From: Anaerolinea sp.
GTDB taxonomy: Bacteria; Chloroflexota; Anaerolineae; Anaerolineales; Anaerolineaceae
Direction of reading: 5' to 3'
Length of the DNA: 10,000 bases
Assembly (NCBI GenBank): GCA_020216845.1
Contig: JAIWNK010000048.1
Location: 1-10,000 of the forward strand
Position numbers and translations under genes: made by a program
The notes under the pieces: model-generated
What the model was told of the DNA's origin: nothing
Database searches by the model: none
Seen by the model: the letters and a program-made list of their open reading frames with translations, nothing else
In this document: positions 531-9,708 of the stretch, piece by piece
Numbering within the stretch: the stretch's first letter is position 1
How the letters are laid out: every line of letters begins with the position of its first letter

Positions 531-2261
531 GTGCCCAAAAATATCCTCGTCGCTTCTCCACACCCCACCTTCGGCGAGCTGCTGCGGCTCAGCCTGGAGG
601 AATGTTGTGCCTATTACGTGCGTCTCGTGCAATCCTGCAAAGAAATTGAAGACATCAGTCAGCGCATGAACTTCGACCTGGCATTGCTTGATGCTGAGCT
701 AAGCGATCAGCCCTTCCCCGAAACGGTGCAACGATTAATGGAGCGCTTCCCCAATCTAAAGCTGATCGTCTTCCCGCCCGAAAACAACCCCCAACACCCC
801 GATATGGCCGGGCTGCGCCCACACGCTTACATGAACAAACCCTTCTACCTGCCCGACCTTGTGGAAGTGATTGAAAGTTTGTTGTCCGTTCCCAGCGCCC
901 CTGCGTCAGCGATGCTTGCGCCCCCAACGCCTGCCCCGGCCTGGTTGCAAGATGTGAACACCGCTGCGCAACACCTCACCCGCCTGCTGCTGGAATCTTC
1001 TGCACAGGCCGCCCTGATCACGCGCCGGACCGAAATTTGGGCCTATGCCGGGCACCTCGATCAGCCTACCGCCCAGGAAATTGCCACCGTGATGGGCCGT
1101 GCCTGGGATAAATATGCCCAAACGGACCTGGCGCGCTTTGTGCGCCTGGAAAACGGCGGCGAGTTCCTCGTCTATGCCACATCGCTGATTGGGGAGATGG
1201 TGTTGGCCATGGTCTACGATGTCTCCATGCCGCTGACGCGCATCCGCTCACAAGCCAGCAAACTGGCGCGCGCCCTGGCAAGTGCCACCAACACCGCCCC
1301 GCAGCTTCCGCAGCCCGAAGAAGCCGTCTCGCCGACAGCGCCTGAGGAAGAGGAAATGGAAGGCCCCGATCTGAGCGAGCAAGAACGCCTTGATATTCTT
1401 GCCATGCTCTCCGACATGCCTTCGCCCGACCCCGAGCCGAACAGCGAGGCAGCCCTCTGGCAAACCGAAATATTTTCGCTCCCCGCAACGAGCGAGGCCA
1501 TCGCCGAGCCGCCAACCGCAGCACAGGCAAGCGAACAGGAAGTGGTGTCGCTTGTCGTCGAACAAGAGCCTAGCACAGAGACGCGCCCCGCTCAGGCAAG
1601 CGAACAGGAAGTAGTGTCGCTTGTCGTTGAAGAAGAGCCCAGCACAGAGACGCGCCCCGCTCAGGCAAGTGAACAGGAAGTGGTGTCGTTTGTTGTTGAA
1701 GAAGAGCCCTGCGCCGAGACGCAACCCGCCCAGGCAACCTTGCTGGAAGAAACCCGCCCGATTGTGCGGCAACCCGTCAGCGAGGCGCTGCCGCTTGCGC
1801 TGAACGACCTCGACCCGGCGGCGCCCGGCTTGAGCTACCTGGCCTACACCTGCATTCTGTTGCCGCGCTTTAGCGAACACTTCCTAACCGGCGAGCTAGC
1901 CGCCCAACTCGGCCAATGGCTGCCGGAGCTGTGCGTTGCGTTTGGCTGGCGGCTGGAAGGCATCGCCATCCGCCCAGAATATTTGCAGTGGACGTTGCGC
2001 GTCCCGCCGGCAGTTTCTCCCGGCGCATTGGTGCGCACCTTACGTCAACAAACCTCGCAGCGCGTTTTTCATGCCTTTCCACACCTCAAGAACCCCGCCG
2101 AAGATTTTTGGGCGCCCGGCTATCTCATCGTGAGCGGGGCACAACCCCCCGCTGCGGACCTGCTGCGCGAATACATGGAGCAAACTCGCCGCCGTCAGGG
2201 AAAGGCCACCCGAAAATCAAGAAAAGAGTCTGTTCATGCCTCCCGTTCTGTTTCTGATTGA
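531..2261 (+). CDS. Composite protein: degenerate receiver + roadblock-like + repeat linker + inactive TnpA (Y1 transposase)-like domain
   Basis: A 576-residue cytoplasmic protein with four regions. Residues 4-118 have a response-regulator receiver fold: Asp54 (in ALLDAEL) and Lys103 (in MNKPF) fit the phosphoacceptor and conserved Lys. The paired acidic residues after strand 1 are Ser9-Pro10, and the Thr/Ser site is Pro82, so normal phosphorylation is doubtful. Residues about 137-251 resemble roadblock/LC7 domains. Residues 252-433 are an acidic, Pro-rich linker with three 23-residue repeats at 332-400. Residues 434-552 resemble IS200/IS605 TnpA: LTGEL at 452-456, VPP at 491-493, FWAPGY at 526-531, and REYMEQT at 546-552, where Tyr548 aligns with the catalytic Tyr. 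The HUH motif position reads Tyr484-Leu485-Gln486, so the metal-binding histidines are missing. A basic tail (553-566) follows. The GTG start is chosen because it begins the first receiver strand and follows a promoter directly. It overlaps polA by 26 bp. Probably a non-catalytic DNA-binding or regulatory protein; function unknown. Confidence 0.82.
   Translation: MPKNILVASPHPTFGELLRLSLEECCAYYVRLVQSCKEIEDISQRMNFDLALLDAELSDQPFPETVQRLMERFPNLKLIVFPPENNPQHPDMAGLRPHAYMNKPFYLPDLVEVIESLLSVPSAPASAMLAPPTPAPAWLQDVNTAAQHLTRLLLESSAQAALITRRTEIWAYAGHLDQPTAQEIATVMGRAWDKYAQTDLARFVRLENGGEFLVYATSLIGEMVLAMVYDVSMPLTRIRSQASKLARALASATNTAPQLPQPEEAVSPTAPEEEEMEGPDLSEQERLDILAMLSDMPSPDPEPNSEAALWQTEIFSLPATSEAIAEPPTAAQASEQEVVSLVVEQEPSTETRPAQASEQEVVSLVVEEEPSTETRPAQASEQEVVSFVVEEEPCAETQPAQATLLEETRPIVRQPVSEALPLALNDLDPAAPGLSYLAYTCILLPRFSEHFLTGELAAQLGQWLPELCVAFGWRLEGIAIRPEYLQWTLRVPPAVSPGALVRTLRQQTSQRVFHAFPHLKNPAEDFWAPGYLIVSGAQPPAADLLREYMEQTRRRQGKATRKSRKESVHASRSVSD
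1524..1730 (+). repeat. Three tandem 69-bp in-frame repeats
   Basis: Three units, 1524-1592, 1593-1661 and 1662-1730, each encode 23 residues of the pattern QASEQEVVSLVVE followed by EPSTETRPA. Units 1 and 2 differ at only 4 of 69 positions by my count. Unit 3 is more diverged (SFVVE, EPCAETQPA). The repeats lie in the acidic linker between the roadblock-like and TnpA-like domains. The near-identity of the first two units points to recent duplication, so copy number may vary between strains. Confidence 0.93.
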
Positions 2262-5025
2262 TGGCCACGCCCTGGCCTACCGCGCCTATTATGCCCTGAC
2301 CGCCGGCGGCAGCCAACGCCTGACGACCAGCAAGGGCGAACCAACCGCTGGCATCTATGGCTTTGCCAGCGTGCTGCTACGCCTGTTGGAACAGGAGCAC
2401 CCCGAATATCTCGCCGTCGCTTTTGACACCGGCAAAACCTTTCGCAACGAACTCTACCCCGAATATAAGGCGACGCGCGCCAAAATGCCGGATGACCTGC
2501 GCCCACAAATCGAGCACATTCGTCGCCTGGTAGATGCTTTTGGCATTCCGCGCCTGGAAGTGGAAGGCGTCGAGGCGGATGATGTGCTTGGCAGCATTGC
2601 CCAACAAGCCGTACAACATGGCCTGGGCGTTAAAATCATCACCGGCGACCGCGACTTGCTACAATTGGTCAACGCCCGCGTGATCATCAACCTGGCTGGC
2701 AGCAAACTGGCCGAAGCGCGTGACTTTACGCCCGAAACGGTTGTCGAAGTGCTGGGCGTACGCCCCGAACAAGTTGTGGATTACAAAGCACTGGTCGGCG
2801 ACACCTCGGATAACATCCCCGGTGTCAGCGGGGTGGGCGAAAAAACCGCCGTGCAGCTGCTGCAACAATACCCCACCCTGGATGCGATTTACGCCAACCT
2901 GGAGGCGTTGACGCCGCGCGTGCGCACCCGCCTGGAGGCCGGGCGGGAATCAGCTTATCTCAGCCGCAGATTGGCAACCATCCGCACCGACGTGCCGCTT
3001 TCACTGGAAATTGAACGCGCCCGCACCACGCACCTCAACTTTTCCGCTGCCGAGGCCATCTTCCACGAGCTGGAATTTCGCACCCTGTTGCGCCGCTTAC
3101 AAACCATCGCCGCACAATTCAACGAGCAAGCGCCCACCCCCACCCAACAGCTCAGCCTGTTTGGCGAGCCGCTGCGCCGCCTGGGGCAGCCGCCGCGCCC
3201 CGACCTGCGCACGCGCATCGTCACCACGCCGGACGAACTCTCTGCCCTGGTGCAGGCGCTGGAGACCGCAGAATGGATCGCGCTGGATACGGAAACGACT
3301 GACACCGACCCGATGAAAGCCGCCCTGGTTGGCATTTCGCTGGCCATCTCGCCCGATGAAGGCTGGTATATCCCCGTCGGTCACACCACCCTGGAAGCCT
3401 CACAACTACCGCTCGAAGAGGTGCTGGCCGCCCTCCGCCCGGCATTGACCCATGCACAGCAACCCAAGCTCGGCCAAAACCTCAAATATGATTGCATCGT
3501 GCTGGCACAGCACGGCTTGGACGTGACTCCGTTGGCCTTTGACACGATGATTGCCCAATGGCTGATCAACCCCGATGCCCGCCTGGGCCTGAAAGACATG
3601 GCCGAAGATTGGCTCGGCATGGAGATGACGCACATCGAAGCGCTGATTGGCAAGGGCAAGAATCAGCGCAAAATGAGCGAAGTGCCCATTGACGAAGTCG
3701 CCCCCTACGCCGCCGCAGATGCTGCCGTGCCACTGCGCCTGCGTCCGCTGCTGCAAGAGCGCTTGCAAGCCCTTCAGGCAGACCGGCTGTTGCATGAGAT
3801 TGAAATGCCACTTGTGCCGGTTCTGGCGCAAATGGAACGCACCGGCATCCGCCTGGACGTGCCTTTCCTGGAGCAAATGTCCGGCGAGCTGAGTGAGCGG
3901 CTGAACGGGCTGGAGCAGGATATTTATCGGACTGCGGGCACAACCTTCAACATCAACTCGACCCAACAGCTTTCAGACGTGTTGTTCAAGCGCCTGGGGC
4001 TTGAGCCGCCCGACCGCAAGAAGCGCACCGCTAGCGGCCATTTTTCCACCTCCGCCGATGTGCTCGAAGAGCTGCGCGGGCAACACGCCATCCTCGACCT
4101 GTTGCTGGAATACCGCGAGCTGACCAAGCTCAAATCCACCTATGTGGATGCGCTGCCGCGTCAGGTCAACCCCAAGAGCGGGCGAGTACACACCTCCTAC
4201 AACCAAACCGGCTCGGTCACCGGACGATTGGCCTCTGCCAACCCCAACCTGCAAAACATCCCCATCCGCAGCGAGCTAGGGCAGCAAGTGCGGCGGGCCT
4301 TCATCGCTGCTCCGGGCCATCAGTTGCTGTCGGTAGATTATTCACAGATTGAATTGCGCATTGTCGCTGCCATGTCGGGCGACGCGGCCATGATTGCCGC
4401 CTTCCAGGCCGGTCAAGATATTCACGCCGCAACCGCAGCCGCCATTTATGGCATTCCACTGGAGCAAGTGAGCAAAGAACAGCGCCGCCATGCCAAGGCG
4501 ATCAACTTTGGGCTAATTTATGGCATGAGCGCTTTCGGGCTGAGCCGCTCCACCGACCTGACCCTGGCCGAGGCGGAACGCTTCGTCAAGGCCTACTTCG
4601 AGCGCTTCCCCGGCGTAAAAGAATACCTGGATGGCATCCGGCGCCTGGCTGCACGGCAAGGCTATGTCGAAACGCTGCTGGGACGGCGGCGCTACTTCCC
4701 CAACCTGCAATCGAATGCCAACCCGGCCTTGCGCGCCCGCGAAGAGCGCGAAGCAATCAATGCCCCCATCCAAGGCACAGCTGCTGACCTGCTCAAAATT
4801 GCCATGATTCGCCTGCCCGCTGCACTGCAAGCCGCCGGATTGCAGGCCAACCTGCTCTTACAAGTCCATGATGAGCTGGTGTTGGAGTGCAAAGACAACG
4901 AAATTGAGGCCACAGCTGACGTTGTTCAGGATATAATGGAGAAGGTCTATTCTTTGGCCGTGCCACTCCTCAGTGAGGCCCGCTTTGGACCCAACTGGGG
5001 CGAAATGCAGCCCATTAAACGTTAA
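2236..5025 (+). CDS. polA: DNA polymerase I, with 5'-3' and 3'-5' exonuclease domains
   Basis: A 929-residue family A polymerase, matching the usual length (E. coli 928). It fills gaps and removes RNA primers in replication and repair. The 5'-3' nuclease (about 1-295) shows LIDGHALAYRAY with Asp9, EADD at 113-116, GDRDLL at 137-142 and GDTSDNIPG at 188-196. The proofreading domain (about 325-510) keeps all three exo motifs: Asp351/Glu353 in DTETT, Asp419 in NLKYD, and Tyr491/Asp495 in YAAAD. The polymerase domain (about 515-929) has motif A DYSQIELR (Asp701, Glu706), motif B with Arg750, Lys754, Phe758 and Tyr762, and motif C QVHDE (Asp879). Phe758 matches the E. coli-type residue that discriminates against dideoxynucleotides. 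The ATG lies inside the 3' end of the preceding gene (26-bp overlap), with only a weak purine-rich stretch (AAAAGAG, 2222-2228) upstream, so translational coupling is likely. Proofreading residues are intact, unlike in Taq polymerase. Confidence 0.98.
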   Translation: MPPVLFLIDGHALAYRAYYALTAGGSQRLTTSKGEPTAGIYGFASVLLRLLEQEHPEYLAVAFDTGKTFRNELYPEYKATRAKMPDDLRPQIEHIRRLVDAFGIPRLEVEGVEADDVLGSIAQQAVQHGLGVKIITGDRDLLQLVNARVIINLAGSKLAEARDFTPETVVEVLGVRPEQVVDYKALVGDTSDNIPGVSGVGEKTAVQLLQQYPTLDAIYANLEALTPRVRTRLEAGRESAYLSRRLATIRTDVPLSLEIERARTTHLNFSAAEAIFHELEFRTLLRRLQTIAAQFNEQAPTPTQQLSLFGEPLRRLGQPPRPDLRTRIVTTPDELSALVQALETAEWIALDTETTDTDPMKAALVGISLAISPDEGWYIPVGHTTLEASQLPLEEVLAALRPALTHAQQPKLGQNLKYDCIVLAQHGLDVTPLAFDTMIAQWLINPDARLGLKDMAEDWLGMEMTHIEALIGKGKNQRKMSEVPIDEVAPYAAADAAVPLRLRPLLQERLQALQADRLLHEIEMPLVPVLAQMERTGIRLDVPFLEQMSGELSERLNGLEQDIYRTAGTTFNINSTQQLSDVLFKRLGLEPPDRKKRTASGHFSTSADVLEELRGQHAILDLLLEYRELTKLKSTYVDALPRQVNPKSGRVHTSYNQTGSVTGRLASANPNLQNIPIRSELGQQVRRAFIAAPGHQLLSVDYSQIELRIVAAMSGDAAMIAAFQAGQDIHAATAAAIYGIPLEQVSKEQRRHAKAINFGLIYGMSAFGLSRSTDLTLAEAERFVKAYFERFPGVKEYLDGIRRLAARQGYVETLLGRRRYFPNLQSNANPALRAREEREAINAPIQGTAADLLKIAMIRLPAALQAAGLQANLLLQVHDELVLECKDNEIEATADVVQDIMEKVYSLAVPLLSEARFGPNWGEMQPIKR

Positions 5026-5042: not shown

Positions 5043-7364
5043 ATGTCAGGTAATCAAGAAGCATTCCAAAAAGCGATGAATCAGGGCAATTCCAGCGCCT
5101 GGGATCAGGCCTGGGAACAGGCGAGTCGCTACTATCGCCTGGCATTGGAAGAATTCCCCGACAACGTGCAAGCGCTCACCAACCTGGGGCTGGCGTTGTT
5201 GGAAATGCGCGAATACAACGATGCTCTGCAATATTATCAAAAAGCAGCCAAACTGGCGCCCGAAGACCCTGTTCCGGTGGATAAGATGGCGCGCATCTTT
5301 GAGCGGCAAGGACGGGTGGATTTGGCCGTGCGGGCCAGCATTCAGGCAGCTGAGTTATTCCTGCGCGCTCGCGATGTGGAGAAAGCGATTCAAAACTGGA
5401 ATCAGGTGCTGAGTATGCAACCTGAGAACATTCCAGCCCGCTCGCGCCTGGCCACCGTCTATGAGAAAACTGGGCGGAAAGCCGAAGCGGTGACACAATA
5501 TCTGGCCATGGCCAGCATCTTACAAAGCGCCGGCGACCGCGCCAAGGCGGCACAATTGGTGCAATATGCCTTACAGTTAATGCCCGACAGCGTGGATGCC
5601 AACGCCGCACAATCCTTGTTGCAATCCAACCTGCCGCTGCCCAAACCGCCGCGCCCGCGCGGCGGCACCGGCCCCATGCGCATGGCGGAAGTGCGACAGT
5701 TGCAAGCCCCGGTTGAAGAAACTGCCCCGCCGACCCCAGACCCCATCACGGAGGCCAAACAAAACGCCCTGGTGGAAATTGCTGCCCTGTTATTCGAGCA
5801 AGAAGATGACCCCCCTATCAGCGGCTCGATAGGACGGCGTGGCATCAGCAGCCTGACGCGCGGCACAGGTGGACTGACGATGGGCCAAAACGACCGTAGC
5901 AAGGTGTTGTTGCACCTCAGTCAGGTGATTGATTCGCAATCGCACGGTCAGGACGCTCAGGCAGCCGAAGAATTGGAACGCGCCGTCAATACCGGCCTGA
6001 ACAAAGCCGCTGCACTGTTTGACCTGGGCTTGCTCCTGGTCGAGCGCGACCCGCAAAAAGCACTGCGTTACCTGCAAATGGCCATCAAACACCCAACGTA
6101 TGCCCTGGCCTGCAACCTGCTGATTGGCAGCATTCACGAGTCAAACCAAAATTATCGCGAGGCGGCCATTGCTTACCTGCAAGCCCTGCGGTTGGCCGAT
6201 GCGGCAGCCATTGATTCCAAGCTGGCCGATGAGGTCAGTCAGCTGTATGAACCGATCATTGACGCCCAAAACCGCGAAACGGACGAAGAAAATTTCAAGA
6301 AAATCTGTCGCGCTGTCGCGGAACAAGTTGTGCGCCCGGATTGGAAGCGCTACCTGCAAACTGCCCGACAGCAATTGCCCATACAACCCGAGGGCAACCC
6401 GCCGCTGCCACTGGCAGAAATGCTGCTAGAATCGCACAGCGGACAGGTTGTTGAATCGCTGGCCAATGTGCGCCGCCTGGCTGCCAAGGGCAAACTCAGC
6501 TCCGCCATGGAAGAGGCCTTCCACGCCCTGCAATATGCCCCCACCTACCTGCCGCTGCACATCCAAATCGGCGAGCTGCTGGCCCAAGAGGGACGCCTGC
6601 CCGAGGCTGTGCAAAAGTTCATATTGGTGGCGCAGCTCTACAGCCTGCGCGGCGAAACCACACAGGCCATCCGCCTGCTGGAACGCGTTTTGCAGCTTGC
6701 CCCCATGGACCTGAACGTGCGCAATCAACTCATCGAGCTGTTGACTGCACAAGGGCGCGTGGACGAGGCCATCCAACAATACATAGACCTTGCCAGCATC
6801 TATTACAGCCTGGCCGAACTAACCCTGGCGCGCGAAACCTATGTGGCAGCATTGCGCCTGGCGCAAGAATCCAACACGAGCCGCGAATGGCCGGTGAAGA
6901 TTTTGACGCAAATTGCTGATATTGACATGCAGCGCATTGACCTGCGTCAGGCCTATCGCATCTTCGAGCAGCTGCGCACACTGGAGCCCGAAAACAGCGA
7001 GCACCGCCGCCACCTGATTGACCTGAGCTTTCGCACCGGACAAGACTCGGTTGCAACAACTGAGCTGGATGGCTACCTGGCCGTCATGGAAAATGCTGGC
7101 AAACGTGCCGAGGCCATTCAATTCGTCTCAGATTTGATCAACGAATACCCCGAACGGCTGGAATTGCGCAAACGCCTGGCCGATATGTATGTGCGCAGCG
7201 GCGAGATCGAAAAAGCCGTGGTTGAACTAGATAACCTGGCCGACATGCTCATGTCGCGCGGCAACCGCGCCGCGGCCATCGCCATCGTACAGGCGGTCAT
7301 CAGCCTCAACCCGCCCAACGTGCAAGAATATCGCACGGTGCTGAAAGAGCTGCGCGGCGGTTGA
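5043..7364 (+). CDS. Large tetratricopeptide-repeat (TPR) protein
   Basis: A 773-residue protein made mainly of TPR helix pairs, which serve as scaffolds for protein-protein contacts. No signal peptide or membrane segment is seen, so it is probably cytoplasmic. Clear TPR-like units occur at about 27-73 (NLGLALLEMREYNDALQYYQKAAKLAP), 75-110, 112-180, 320-385 and more or less continuously from 468 to 765 (for example LHIQIGELLAQEGRLPEAV at 505-523). A non-repeat linker rich in Pro, Gly and Arg (about 195-282, with a Pro/Arg cluster at 198-206 and a Gly-rich stretch at 273-282) separates an N-terminal and a C-terminal superhelix. No catalytic domain is recognised. It follows polA by 17 bp with a good ribosome binding site, so it is probably cotranscribed with polA and the composite gene. 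Its partner is unknown; a role with either upstream product is inference from position. The gene ends 2 bp from the convergent dehydrogenase gene. Confidence 0.9.
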   Translation: MSGNQEAFQKAMNQGNSSAWDQAWEQASRYYRLALEEFPDNVQALTNLGLALLEMREYNDALQYYQKAAKLAPEDPVPVDKMARIFERQGRVDLAVRASIQAAELFLRARDVEKAIQNWNQVLSMQPENIPARSRLATVYEKTGRKAEAVTQYLAMASILQSAGDRAKAAQLVQYALQLMPDSVDANAAQSLLQSNLPLPKPPRPRGGTGPMRMAEVRQLQAPVEETAPPTPDPITEAKQNALVEIAALLFEQEDDPPISGSIGRRGISSLTRGTGGLTMGQNDRSKVLLHLSQVIDSQSHGQDAQAAEELERAVNTGLNKAAALFDLGLLLVERDPQKALRYLQMAIKHPTYALACNLLIGSIHESNQNYREAAIAYLQALRLADAAAIDSKLADEVSQLYEPIIDAQNRETDEENFKKICRAVAEQVVRPDWKRYLQTARQQLPIQPEGNPPLPLAEMLLESHSGQVVESLANVRRLAAKGKLSSAMEEAFHALQYAPTYLPLHIQIGELLAQEGRLPEAVQKFILVAQLYSLRGETTQAIRLLERVLQLAPMDLNVRNQLIELLTAQGRVDEAIQQYIDLASIYYSLAELTLARETYVAALRLAQESNTSREWPVKILTQIADIDMQRIDLRQAYRIFEQLRTLEPENSEHRRHLIDLSFRTGQDSVATTELDGYLAVMENAGKRAEAIQFVSDLINEYPERLELRKRLADMYVRSGEIEKAVVELDNLADMLMSRGNRAAAIAIVQAVISLNPPNVQEYRTVLKELRGG

Positions 7365-7366
7365 TT

Positions 7367-8122
7367 TTAGCAAGCCGTCCGGCGTCCAAGCGAAGCCAAA
7401 TAGATGACGAATTGTGCTTCGCCATCCAGCCCCAACGCCTGATTGAGCACCTCGTCCTCATAGGCGGCAATCGCACATACGCCGCAATTGAGCGGCTCGG
7501 CGGCCAGGTAGAGATTCTGGCACACATGACCAGCATCCAACAACAGATAGCGATAACCGCGCTCGCCATAACGCCAGGTCATGCGCTCGGTGATTGCCAC
7601 CCAAATGAAAGTCACCGCGCTGCCGCGCACCTGTCGCTGATCGTAACAGCCCTTGGTGATCACCTCAACCATTTCGGCATCCAACCGCACCGGCAAGAGC
7701 GCGTTTTCCAGTGCCACGTAACGATACAGCCCCGCTTGCAACCCCTCCACGCGATTGACGAGCAGATACGTCTCAAACGCATGGCGCGCCCCAGCAGAAG
7801 GCACCGTGCGCAGCGTCACCGGACGATGCGTCACCTCTTTGACCCCTTGGGTGGCCCAAAGCAAGAAGGACAACTCGCCCAGCGAAAGCGGCTCCTCGGC
7901 ATAGGTGCGCACCGTCACGCGCTGCTCAATCACCTGACGCAGGTCAAGCGGCGGCAGTGACAGTTCCTTCGGATCGGGCAGGGCAATCAGCGGCGCGTCC
8001 AACGGATAGGGCAGCTCCAGTGCCGGCTGCGGCAAACCCTGACTCTGCGCCGAGGGGGGCAGGTAACGATGTTGCGTCAGACGCATGAATTCACGACCAA
8101 TTCCATCTGAAACTTCTGACAT
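7367..8122 (-). CDS. SagB-type (nitroreductase-family) FMN-dependent dehydrogenase
   Basis: A 251-residue protein of the SagB/ThcOx branch of the nitroreductase superfamily. These FMN enzymes include those that oxidise thiazolines and oxazolines in azole-modified peptides, but many members stand alone with unknown substrates. Family signs are VTVRTYAEEPLSLGELSFLLWATQGV (69-94, with the Arg expected near FMN phosphate), VPSAGARHAFETYL (107-120), GLYRY (131-135), DAGHVCQNLYLAA (196-208) and CGVCAIAAYEDEVLNQALGL (213-232). An upstream in-frame start at 8464 exists but would read through the murJ 3' end. The ATG at 8122 is preferred because AGGAGG lies 5 nt before it and family similarity begins downstream of it. 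It is 23 bp after the murJ stop, so probably the last gene of that transcript. No cyclodehydratase (SagC/SagD) or precursor peptide is in the window, so a peptide-azole role is not supported here. Confidence 0.9.
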   Translation of the reverse strand: MSEVSDGIGREFMRLTQHRYLPPSAQSQGLPQPALELPYPLDAPLIALPDPKELSLPPLDLRQVIEQRVTVRTYAEEPLSLGELSFLLWATQGVKEVTHRPVTLRTVPSAGARHAFETYLLVNRVEGLQAGLYRYVALENALLPVRLDAEMVEVITKGCYDQRQVRGSAVTFIWVAITERMTWRYGERGYRYLLLDAGHVCQNLYLAAEPLNCGVCAIAAYEDEVLNQALGLDGEAQFVIYLASLGRRTAC

Positions 8123-8127
8123 GAGAA

Positions 8128-8133
8128 CCTCCT
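8128..8133 (-). promoter_or_regulatory. Strong ribosome binding site of the SagB-type dehydrogenase gene
   Basis: AGGAGG on the minus strand, 5 nt before the ATG at 8122. It decides between this start and the longer reading frame that extends to 8464 inside murJ. Confidence 0.8.
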
Positions 8134-8145
8134 GAAAGCAAAGGG

Positions 8146-9708
8146 TTATCGTCGCAACACACGCCGCAAGAGCATGTGCAGTTCTTCCACGCGCAACAAC
8201 GCCGCCATGGCCAAATAGACCGCCGCCCCCAGCAACACGCCGCCCAAAGTCAACCAGGCCGGGGAAAGGGCCGCCGCCCAACGCAACCACCCCAACAGGG
8301 CAAGGCTCATCGCCAGCACCGCCAGGGTTGCCTGCCACACCGCCTGAGCGATGCGGCGCCCCTCCAGGCCGCCCAACCGGCGGCGCATCAGCACCAGCAA
8401 AATGATCGCCTCCAACGCCGTGGCGAATGAATTGGCCAGAGCCAACCCGCCATGCGGCGCCCACCCCAGGCGCAAAAACCCAGCTGGCAGGCTCAGGCTG
8501 AGCAGGATGTTAAGCGACATGGCGGCGACGCCGACCATCACCGGGGTGCGTGTATCATGCAGCGCATAAAAGGTGCGGCTGAGAATCTCGACCACCGCAT
8601 GACCGAGCAAACCAGCCGCATACCAAAGCAAGGCCCAGGCCACCAGTCGGGTAGAAGCAGCGGTAAACTCGCCCCCCTCATATAAGAAACGCACCAACGG
8701 TACGCGCAACATGATCAAGCCCAGAGCAGCCGGAATGGAAAGCAGCAAAACGCCGCGCAAGCTACCCGCCAGCGAATGGCGCAACTGATCCAACCGCCCC
8801 AGGGCTACCTGCGCCGAAAACGTCGGCAGCGCCGCAATCGCCACCGATTGGGCAATGGCCGCCTGCGGCATCAGCATCAGCGCAAAAGCCAGCGAGATCG
8901 CCGAAACACTGCCGGCTGGCAAAGACAGGGCAATGATGGTGTTGGCAATGAAATTGATTTGCACCACGGCCACGCCCAAAATGCGCGGGCCCATCAGCAG
9001 CATCACCTGCCGCACCTCCCGCATGCGCAGCCCCAACACCAGGCTATAACTGCCGCCCAGGCGCAACAACAGCGGCGACTGCACCAGCAAGTGAAACAAT
9101 GAGCCAAACAAAACACCCACCGCCAGGCGAACAATGCCCCACTCTGCCGGCAGGAAAAGCACCCCGGCGATCTGACCGAGCGAATACATCGCCGGAGCGA
9201 TGGCCGGCACCCAAAAGCGCTGATGAGCATTGAGAATGCCCATCACCAGGCCGCTCAGGCCAAAGATGACCACCGTCGGCAATTGAATGCGCAAAAGCGC
9301 CACGGTCAGCGCCTCCTGACCGGCGGGCAAATCGGGCGCAAGGATAAACAAACCATAGCGCACAACCTGCGGCGCAAACAAAGCCACCAGACCGGCCACA
9401 AGCGTCAGCACCAACAGCAACAAGTTGGCAATTGCCGAAGCCAGCTTCCAGGCCTCGGCGCGGCGTTCCTGCGCCAGCAAACCGGTGAAGGTAGGGATGA
9501 AGGCCGACCCCAAAGCCCCACCCGCCATCAGGTTGAACAGCAATTCGGCCACACGGTTGGCAGCGTTGAACGAATCCAAATCAGCCGACGTGCCAAAGGT
9601 GCGATAGATCAAAATACCGCGTAACACACCGATGATTTGCGTAATCAGGAAGGCAACCATCACCGTCCCGGCGGCTCGTGCAATTTGACGAAGGGGGGAA
9701 GACTGCAT
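8146..9708 (-). CDS. murJ: Lipid II flippase MurJ (MviN family, MOP superfamily)
   Basis: A 520-residue polytopic inner-membrane protein of the usual MurJ length, with about 14 hydrophobic segments from residue 13 to about 505. MurJ flips the lipid-linked peptidoglycan precursor lipid II to the outer face of the membrane. Diagnostic features are the N-terminal IIGVLRGILI (25-34, with Arg30), the acidic stretch SADLDSFNAANR (41-52), NLMAGGALGSAFIPTFTG (59-76) and FLYEGGEFTA (341-350), all in family order. Arg52 lies where E. coli MurJ has an essential Arg; this is by eye. The C-terminus is short and basic (LLRRVLRR, 513-520). The ATG at 9708 begins just before the first membrane helix. It has no Shine-Dalgarno sequence, but a TATAAT box ends 8 bp upstream. 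It sits 28 bp after an upstream membrane-protein gene and 23 bp before the SagB-type dehydrogenase. Confidence 0.96.
   Translation of the reverse strand: MQSSPLRQIARAAGTVMVAFLITQIIGVLRGILIYRTFGTSADLDSFNAANRVAELLFNLMAGGALGSAFIPTFTGLLAQERRAEAWKLASAIANLLLLVLTLVAGLVALFAPQVVRYGLFILAPDLPAGQEALTVALLRIQLPTVVIFGLSGLVMGILNAHQRFWVPAIAPAMYSLGQIAGVLFLPAEWGIVRLAVGVLFGSLFHLLVQSPLLLRLGGSYSLVLGLRMREVRQVMLLMGPRILGVAVVQINFIANTIIALSLPAGSVSAISLAFALMLMPQAAIAQSVAIAALPTFSAQVALGRLDQLRHSLAGSLRGVLLLSIPAALGLIMLRVPLVRFLYEGGEFTAASTRLVAWALLWYAAGLLGHAVVEILSRTFYALHDTRTPVMVGVAAMSLNILLSLSLPAGFLRLGWAPHGGLALANSFATALEAIILLVLMRRRLGGLEGRRIAQAVWQATLAVLAMSLALLGWLRWAAALSPAWLTLGGVLLGAAVYLAMAALLRVEELHMLLRRVLRR

Follow-up and report, generated by a model that had tools for sequence, protein, structure and literature searches.

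The closest described relatives of the domain studied here are the TnpA transposases of the IS200/IS605 family. According to the available part of the survey by Quentin et al. 2018 (PMC6006769), TnpAs work as dimers, and active ones favour the lagging strand. For the TnpA of IS608, affinity for fork-like DNA and a presumed interaction with the DnaN sliding clamp are described. Of 924 TnpA-Y1 proteins, 722 were kept there as probably active, and 202 without complete core motifs were set aside. TnpA-REP (RAYT) proteins, which the same source regards as possibly domesticated, are Y1 proteins encoded by the host.

MglB, the Roadblock GAP of MglA, resembles another part of the protein described below. 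Roadblock domains dimerise. TldR proteins are nuclease-dead TnpB repressors; they have lost catalysis, kept binding and been turned to regulation. TldR belongs to the same transposon family as the TnpA considered here and differs in being derived from TnpB and RNA-guided; one later paper, in its available part, describes it as phage-encoded. Other IS200/IS605-family exaptations are named in PMC8987985, in the available part of which the word TnpA is absent.

The window analysed here is a single stretch of 10,000 nucleotides. It encodes a host receiver-Roadblock protein with an IS200/IS605-type TnpA domain at its C terminus, and polA follows this gene closely in most of the loci sampled from this order of Anaerolineae (Chloroflexota). 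The domain has the whole fold and the element order of the TnpAs of ISDra2, IS608 and DR_0177, and it has a W, a Y, a P and two basic positions in common with them. Unlike them, it lacks the full set of H-x-H and Tyr, has nearly always lost the metal-binding Gln and treats the Tyr as optional. It is also fused C-terminally to receiver and Roadblock domains, at a recurrent host locus where no transposon ends were seen. The likeness to RAYT proteins (4er8) lies in host encoding. Some sources label these fusions “RayT”; the fusion lacks the combination of HUH motif, Y---NP motif and REP flanks by which RAYTs are recognised. No description of a receiver-Roadblock-TnpA fusion was found in the literature searched, and “response regulator” does not occur in the main text of PMC6006769, as far as available.

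Domain structure of the fusion protein

The features of the window are collected in Table 1. The listing gives 120 of the 1769 matches at E<=0.001, and many of these 120 extend over 96-98% of the length of the fusion.

Table 1. Positions of the fusion gene, its parts and the genes downstream of it in the window
Feature	Position	Strand	Basis
Fusion ORF, 576 aa: receiver, MglB-like Roadblock, disordered linker, TnpA	531..2261	+	ORF
Receiver (REC) domain, degenerate by its residues, residues 3-122	537..896	+	
MglB-like Roadblock/LC7 domain, residues 137-254	939..1292	+	profile and predicted topology
Disordered acidic linker, about residues 258-432	1302..1826	+	pLDDT mostly <50
Three tandem repeats within the linker, 69-bp spacing (23-aa unit)	1521..1749	+	
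TnpA (Y1 transposase) domain, catalytically dead as read from its residues, residues 434-557	1830..2201	+	sequence profile and fold
Former HUH site, Tyr484-Leu-Gln486	1980..1988	+	alignment to solved TnpAs and family tally
Former nucleophile helix, Tyr548 and Thr552	2172..2186	+	family tally
polA (DNA polymerase I)	2236..5025	+	Pfam DNA_pol_A and both exonucleases
TPR-repeat protein, third gene of the recurrent run	5043..7364	+	Pfam TPR

Asp54 of the receiver is invariant (34/34 aligned proteins). The position of the beta-1 acidic pair, for which we take the CheY-type consensus as the yardstick, reads Ser-Pro-His in the window protein, and judged by its residues the receiver is degenerate. The middle domain, used as a 24-sequence profile, matches MglB structures at E 2.9e-6, and a structure model predicts the element order a-b-b-a-b-b-b-a, which we take to be the Roadblock topology; none of the 24 family sequences matched the Pfam Roadblock models. 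The arrangement differs from that of MglB, since the Roadblock domain here sits between receiver and TnpA and no GTPase gene adjoins it in the window. Matches of the whole-protein model to Rag GTPases were set aside and read as an arrangement of receiver (alpha/beta) and Roadblock, not as a GTPase.

The linker that follows is acidic throughout the family, with a median net charge of -10 over 123 linkers. It carries a proline motif, LSDMPSPDP, at residues 293-301, which a pattern search found in 77 of 107 non-redundant linkers.

The C-terminal domain matches the Y1_Tnp sequence profile and is predicted to have the TnpA fold; its match to NCBIfam transpos_IS200 falls below the cut-off of that model. 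VIA-align of the whole-protein model returned receiver rows only, and the TnpA domain was then predicted alone and re-aligned. The TnpA layout that a sequence-only reading had seen in residues 434-552 is upheld by the profile match, the predicted fold and the alignment to solved TnpAs.

Catalytic residues and selection

That the HUH histidines are replaced by Tyr484 and Gln486 was confirmed in the alignment to solved TnpAs, and the loss extends to orthologues. A tally was made over 121 fusion ORFs, a set that takes in near-copies and the window itself. At the first HUH position it gave Tyr in 108, His in 5, Phe in 3, Thr in 2, and Ala, Val and Cys in 1 each; at the second, Gln in 106, Glu in 5, His in 3, Leu in 2, Arg in 2, and Tyr, Val and Cys in 1 each. 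The nucleophile position holds Tyr in 84, Phe in 36 and Leu in 1; the Tyr548 noted earlier is thus present in the window protein but is not conserved across the family. Thr552 occupies the place of the metal-binding Gln of active TnpAs (a role given in the available part of PMC6006769). At this third metal ligand position, Tyr+4, the fusions have Thr in 95, Ile in 12, Gln in 5, Val in 4, Ala in 3 and Ser in 2.

His, His and Tyr occur together in none of the 121 fusions. H-x-H at both HUH positions was seen in one of 111 (L136), with Phe for the Tyr and Thr for the Gln. As a control, 30 loci were taken from the best free-standing PF01797 matches in the same order. No more than 19 of them could be aligned to the profile of the fusion family; among those, His occurs in 18/19 and 18/19, Tyr in 16/19 and Gln in 16/19. 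Read from these residues, catalytic activity is absent from the fusions.

The lost site does not go with relaxed selection. Ten pairs, in which some proteins recur, were hand-picked from the 15 listed with the highest similarity, out of 90 pairs with identities of 75-95%. Their NG86 dN/dS ranged from 0.013 to 0.050 in the TnpA part, from 0.040 to 0.136 in the receiver-Roadblock part and from 0.080 to 0.220 in the linker, and the TnpA part was the lowest of the three in all ten. P445, P497 and R553 are found in 121 of 121 fusions and W473 and W527 in 120, and several W, P, G and R positions of the domain stand at 95-100%. The residues that replaced the catalytic ones are conserved as well: Tyr484 in 108, Gln486 in 106, Thr552 in 95 and Arg553 in 121 of the 121. 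Low dN/dS, conserved replacement residues and strict positions of the family's own indicate that the domain has been kept for something; strong selection on a dead domain fused to signalling domains suggests a new function for the cell. Motif loss was taken in the available text of Quentin et al. 2018 (PMC6006769) to suggest non-functional proteins; this group is instead strongly conserved. Y1 homologues without the motifs were set aside there as probably non-functional; in the present family a domain of this kind is under tighter constraint than any other part of a widespread host protein. Sequence, predicted fold, family-wide residue loss, purifying selection and the recurrent host synteny described below support the earlier reading of an exapted, catalytically dead TnpA fused to signalling domains. 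That the domain is dead, exapted and under selection is almost certain.

What the domain is kept for can be read in several ways. One is that the catalytic pocket was rebuilt for another ligand or partner, with Tyr-x-Gln...Thr-Arg as new functional residues. These residues are indeed conserved rather than drifting. The pocket is not uniform, however, since fusions of family f4 have His/Tyr-x-Glu at the HUH site and keep Gln at 552; the solved structure 2fyx likewise has Tyr at the first HUH His, and conserved residues may only hold the fold. This explanation seems improbable.

Another model gives the domain a purely structural part: it would no longer bind nucleic acid and would serve as a dimerisation or protein-protein scaffold that pairs two receiver-Roadblock units. 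The dimeric working of TnpAs (PMC6006769, available part) fits such a role. The median net charge of the domain, +3 over 123 ORFs against +6 for 18 free-standing TnpAs, points the same way, and DNA affinity is possibly reduced in view of it. So do conserved residues unlike those of active TnpAs, namely W473-R474, NPSGDFWAPGY and RxRQG. Yet basic positions that match conserved lysines of free-standing TnpAs stay basic in the fusions (R446 and R505, each for Lys), next to W527, Y531 and P493, which are retained from them. The constraint also seems high for dimerisation alone, given that the Roadblock domains would already dimerise. A scaffold is rather unlikely.

The polA locus and the origin of the fusion

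Loci were drawn from the best 80 of 193 relatives and from genome stretches around matches, a sample in which near relatives are over-represented. Once 13 near-copies were dropped, 107 fusion loci were left, 104 of them with at least 600 bp downstream. A polA ORF on the same strand starts between -400 and +700 bp from the fusion end (median 51) in 91 of these 104; in the window the two coding sequences overlap by 26 nt, the polA start codon coming before the fusion ORF ends. Of the other 13, L075, L103 and L142 have polA at a greater distance; in the remaining ten, four of which (L013, L061, L076, L079) have about 10 kb downstream, none was seen. Among the 60 non-redundant loci with more than 5.5 kb downstream, 54 have the TPR gene, on the same strand. 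A fixed upstream gene was also sought; the largest cluster of upstream stop-to-stop ORFs covered only 26 of 67 loci with room, so nothing appears to be fixed on that side. The recurrent synteny with polA speaks against mobility, and inspection for repeats, as distinct from a dedicated search for IS ends, showed no end-like repeats around the fusion gene.

Receiver-Roadblock proteins without a TnpA domain were found at 21 loci. Four of them (L097, L098, L198, L199) stand directly before polA; at the other 17, polA is missing from the stretch available, which in L185 includes almost no downstream sequence. These relatives likely mark the state before capture and so allow tests of how a transposase became a host factor. 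From the sequences we infer that TnpA joined an older receiver-Roadblock gene, one that was linked to polA in at least part of the class. A fusion from another order of the class (L183:2000-3424, minus strand) has the same domain order and a dead site, and no polA lies within 2 kb of it; it branches first in the tree as drawn and is perhaps the oldest form.

The tree is unrooted and holds 65 rows: 39 labelled fusion (including L163, with its parts in separate frames, and L167, cut by a contig end), 7 solo copies and 19 free-standing TnpAs of the same order, profile-aligned. A branch with 100/100 support has the free-standing TnpAs on one side and every fusion and solo copy on the other. Six short solo copies of the dead domain from family f2 (L091-L096, 182-231 aa), also without the catalytic set, nest among the fusions (98/98), which suggests that the dead domain was later duplicated out.

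Of 151 genomes from the order, 80 match the protein family at E<=1e-20, a number that includes genomes in which the match is confined to the receiver-Roadblock part. Longilinea arvoryzae is among the species with the fusion (L003). The window's taxonomic family has the gene in 4 of 17 sampled genomes. Thirteen genomes of that family were searched for polA and all have it; 12 are without a fusion-family match at E<=1e-20, so the gene appears dispensable there, and only G490 has the fusion upstream of polA.

Absence from the other 13 of the 17 sampled genomes could mean that a transposon once inserted into the 3' end of a gene linked to polA and that the domain is its functionless, decaying relic. 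Such decay would fit the 115 aa left of the TnpA domain in G200 (L102) and what may be a weak remnant ahead of polA in G311 (L201). The selection data contradict it: the dN/dS of the TnpA part is the lowest in every pair, an ORF with both parts exists in 107 non-redundant loci, and the near-invariant positions persist. A relic is extremely unlikely.

Apart from the fusion, Y1_Tnp matches one protein in the assembly that holds the window: a cut protein of TnpA-REP type on contig C122 (L104:1-400, minus strand), with a YIQNNP motif recognised by eye. Among viral contigs, 9 pattern matches were all unrelated to the single query protein, a query that detects close relatives only; they gave no sign of phage carriage.

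A co-occurring GTPase and the possible role of the fusion

An MglA-like small GTPase of about 181 aa is encoded elsewhere in the genome (L213:2411-2953, minus strand), between an uncharacterised gene and, by eye, a hydrolase-like gene. Of 151 genomes, 119 contain a match to it (E<=0.001), in most of them at 73-90% identity. The GTPase is present in 77 of 80 genomes with the fusion family and in 42 of 71 without it (Fisher p 1.2e-8, uncorrected for phylogeny). Within the window's taxonomic family the figures are 4/4 and 0/13. Its absences cluster, mainly in genera of that family and, as far as listed, in family f101. GAP activity of the Roadblock part on an MglA-type GTPase is a possibility raised by this co-occurrence.

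The explanation preferred here is that the fusion binds DNA structures and thereby regulates some step of DNA repair or replication. The TnpA domain would have been captured by the older receiver-Roadblock gene and would still dimerise. Without cutting, it would still hold nucleic acid, whether ssDNA, a hairpin or fork-like DNA; the hairpin or ssDNA reader first proposed is one possibility among several. That binding state might then be relayed by the long acidic linker and the receiver-Roadblock half to a partner. The most likely one would be the MglA-like GTPase, reached via the MglB-like domain, and/or Pol I, whose gene overlaps that of the fusion. A link to replication has literature support in the fork affinity and presumed sliding-clamp interaction of IS608 TnpA and in the preference of active TnpAs for the lagging strand (PMC6006769, available part). 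Several observations count against this explanation: the GTPase gene sits among other genes elsewhere in the genome, the L183 fusion and 17 of the 21 TnpA-less relatives show no polA in their stretch, 13 fusion loci have no polA close by, the gene appears dispensable in the window's taxonomic family, the net charge of the domain is lower than in free-standing TnpAs, and the receiver is degenerate. With the mechanism included, we give this reading a probability of roughly 0.45.

Alternatively, the link to polA may be no more than frozen synteny, and the role of the protein may lie in polarity, in motility or in some other GTPase pathway that has nothing to do with DNA. The MglB-like domain, the co-occurring GTPase and the TnpA-less relatives without polA nearby are all consistent with this. 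Against it, the fused domain has a DNA-binding fold, and the closeness of polA in 91 of 104 diverged loci, together with the overlap in the window, argues for co-expression. Frozen synteny is on balance unlikely.

A more specific form of the regulator can be imagined. A non-cutting sensor of hairpin or fork DNA at lagging-strand gaps would set, via the MglB-like Roadblock domain, an MglA-like GTPase that controls DNA polymerase I. This version is very doubtful; if true, it would amount to a GTPase-linked switch of DNA repair or replication, of which none was found described in the literature searched. For annotators, the results give reason against naming these genes “transposase” or “RayT”, labels now in use in some sources.

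The TPR protein of the recurrent run also co-occurs with the fusion family (76 of 80 genomes with it, 39 of 71 without). This was discounted as a lead because the protein is widespread and its absences cluster in a few clades; four f97 genomes carry the fusion family without it. Homologues of the nitroreductase-family gene and murJ (7367-9708, minus strand) turned up in the available stretch of just 3 and 2, respectively, of 90 fusion loci, which places both genes outside the recurrent run. At the other end of the window, a divergent gene fragment cut by the contig edge (1-495, minus strand) has no Pfam NurA match and carries an ADGSQI stretch that, as we take it, recalls NurA.
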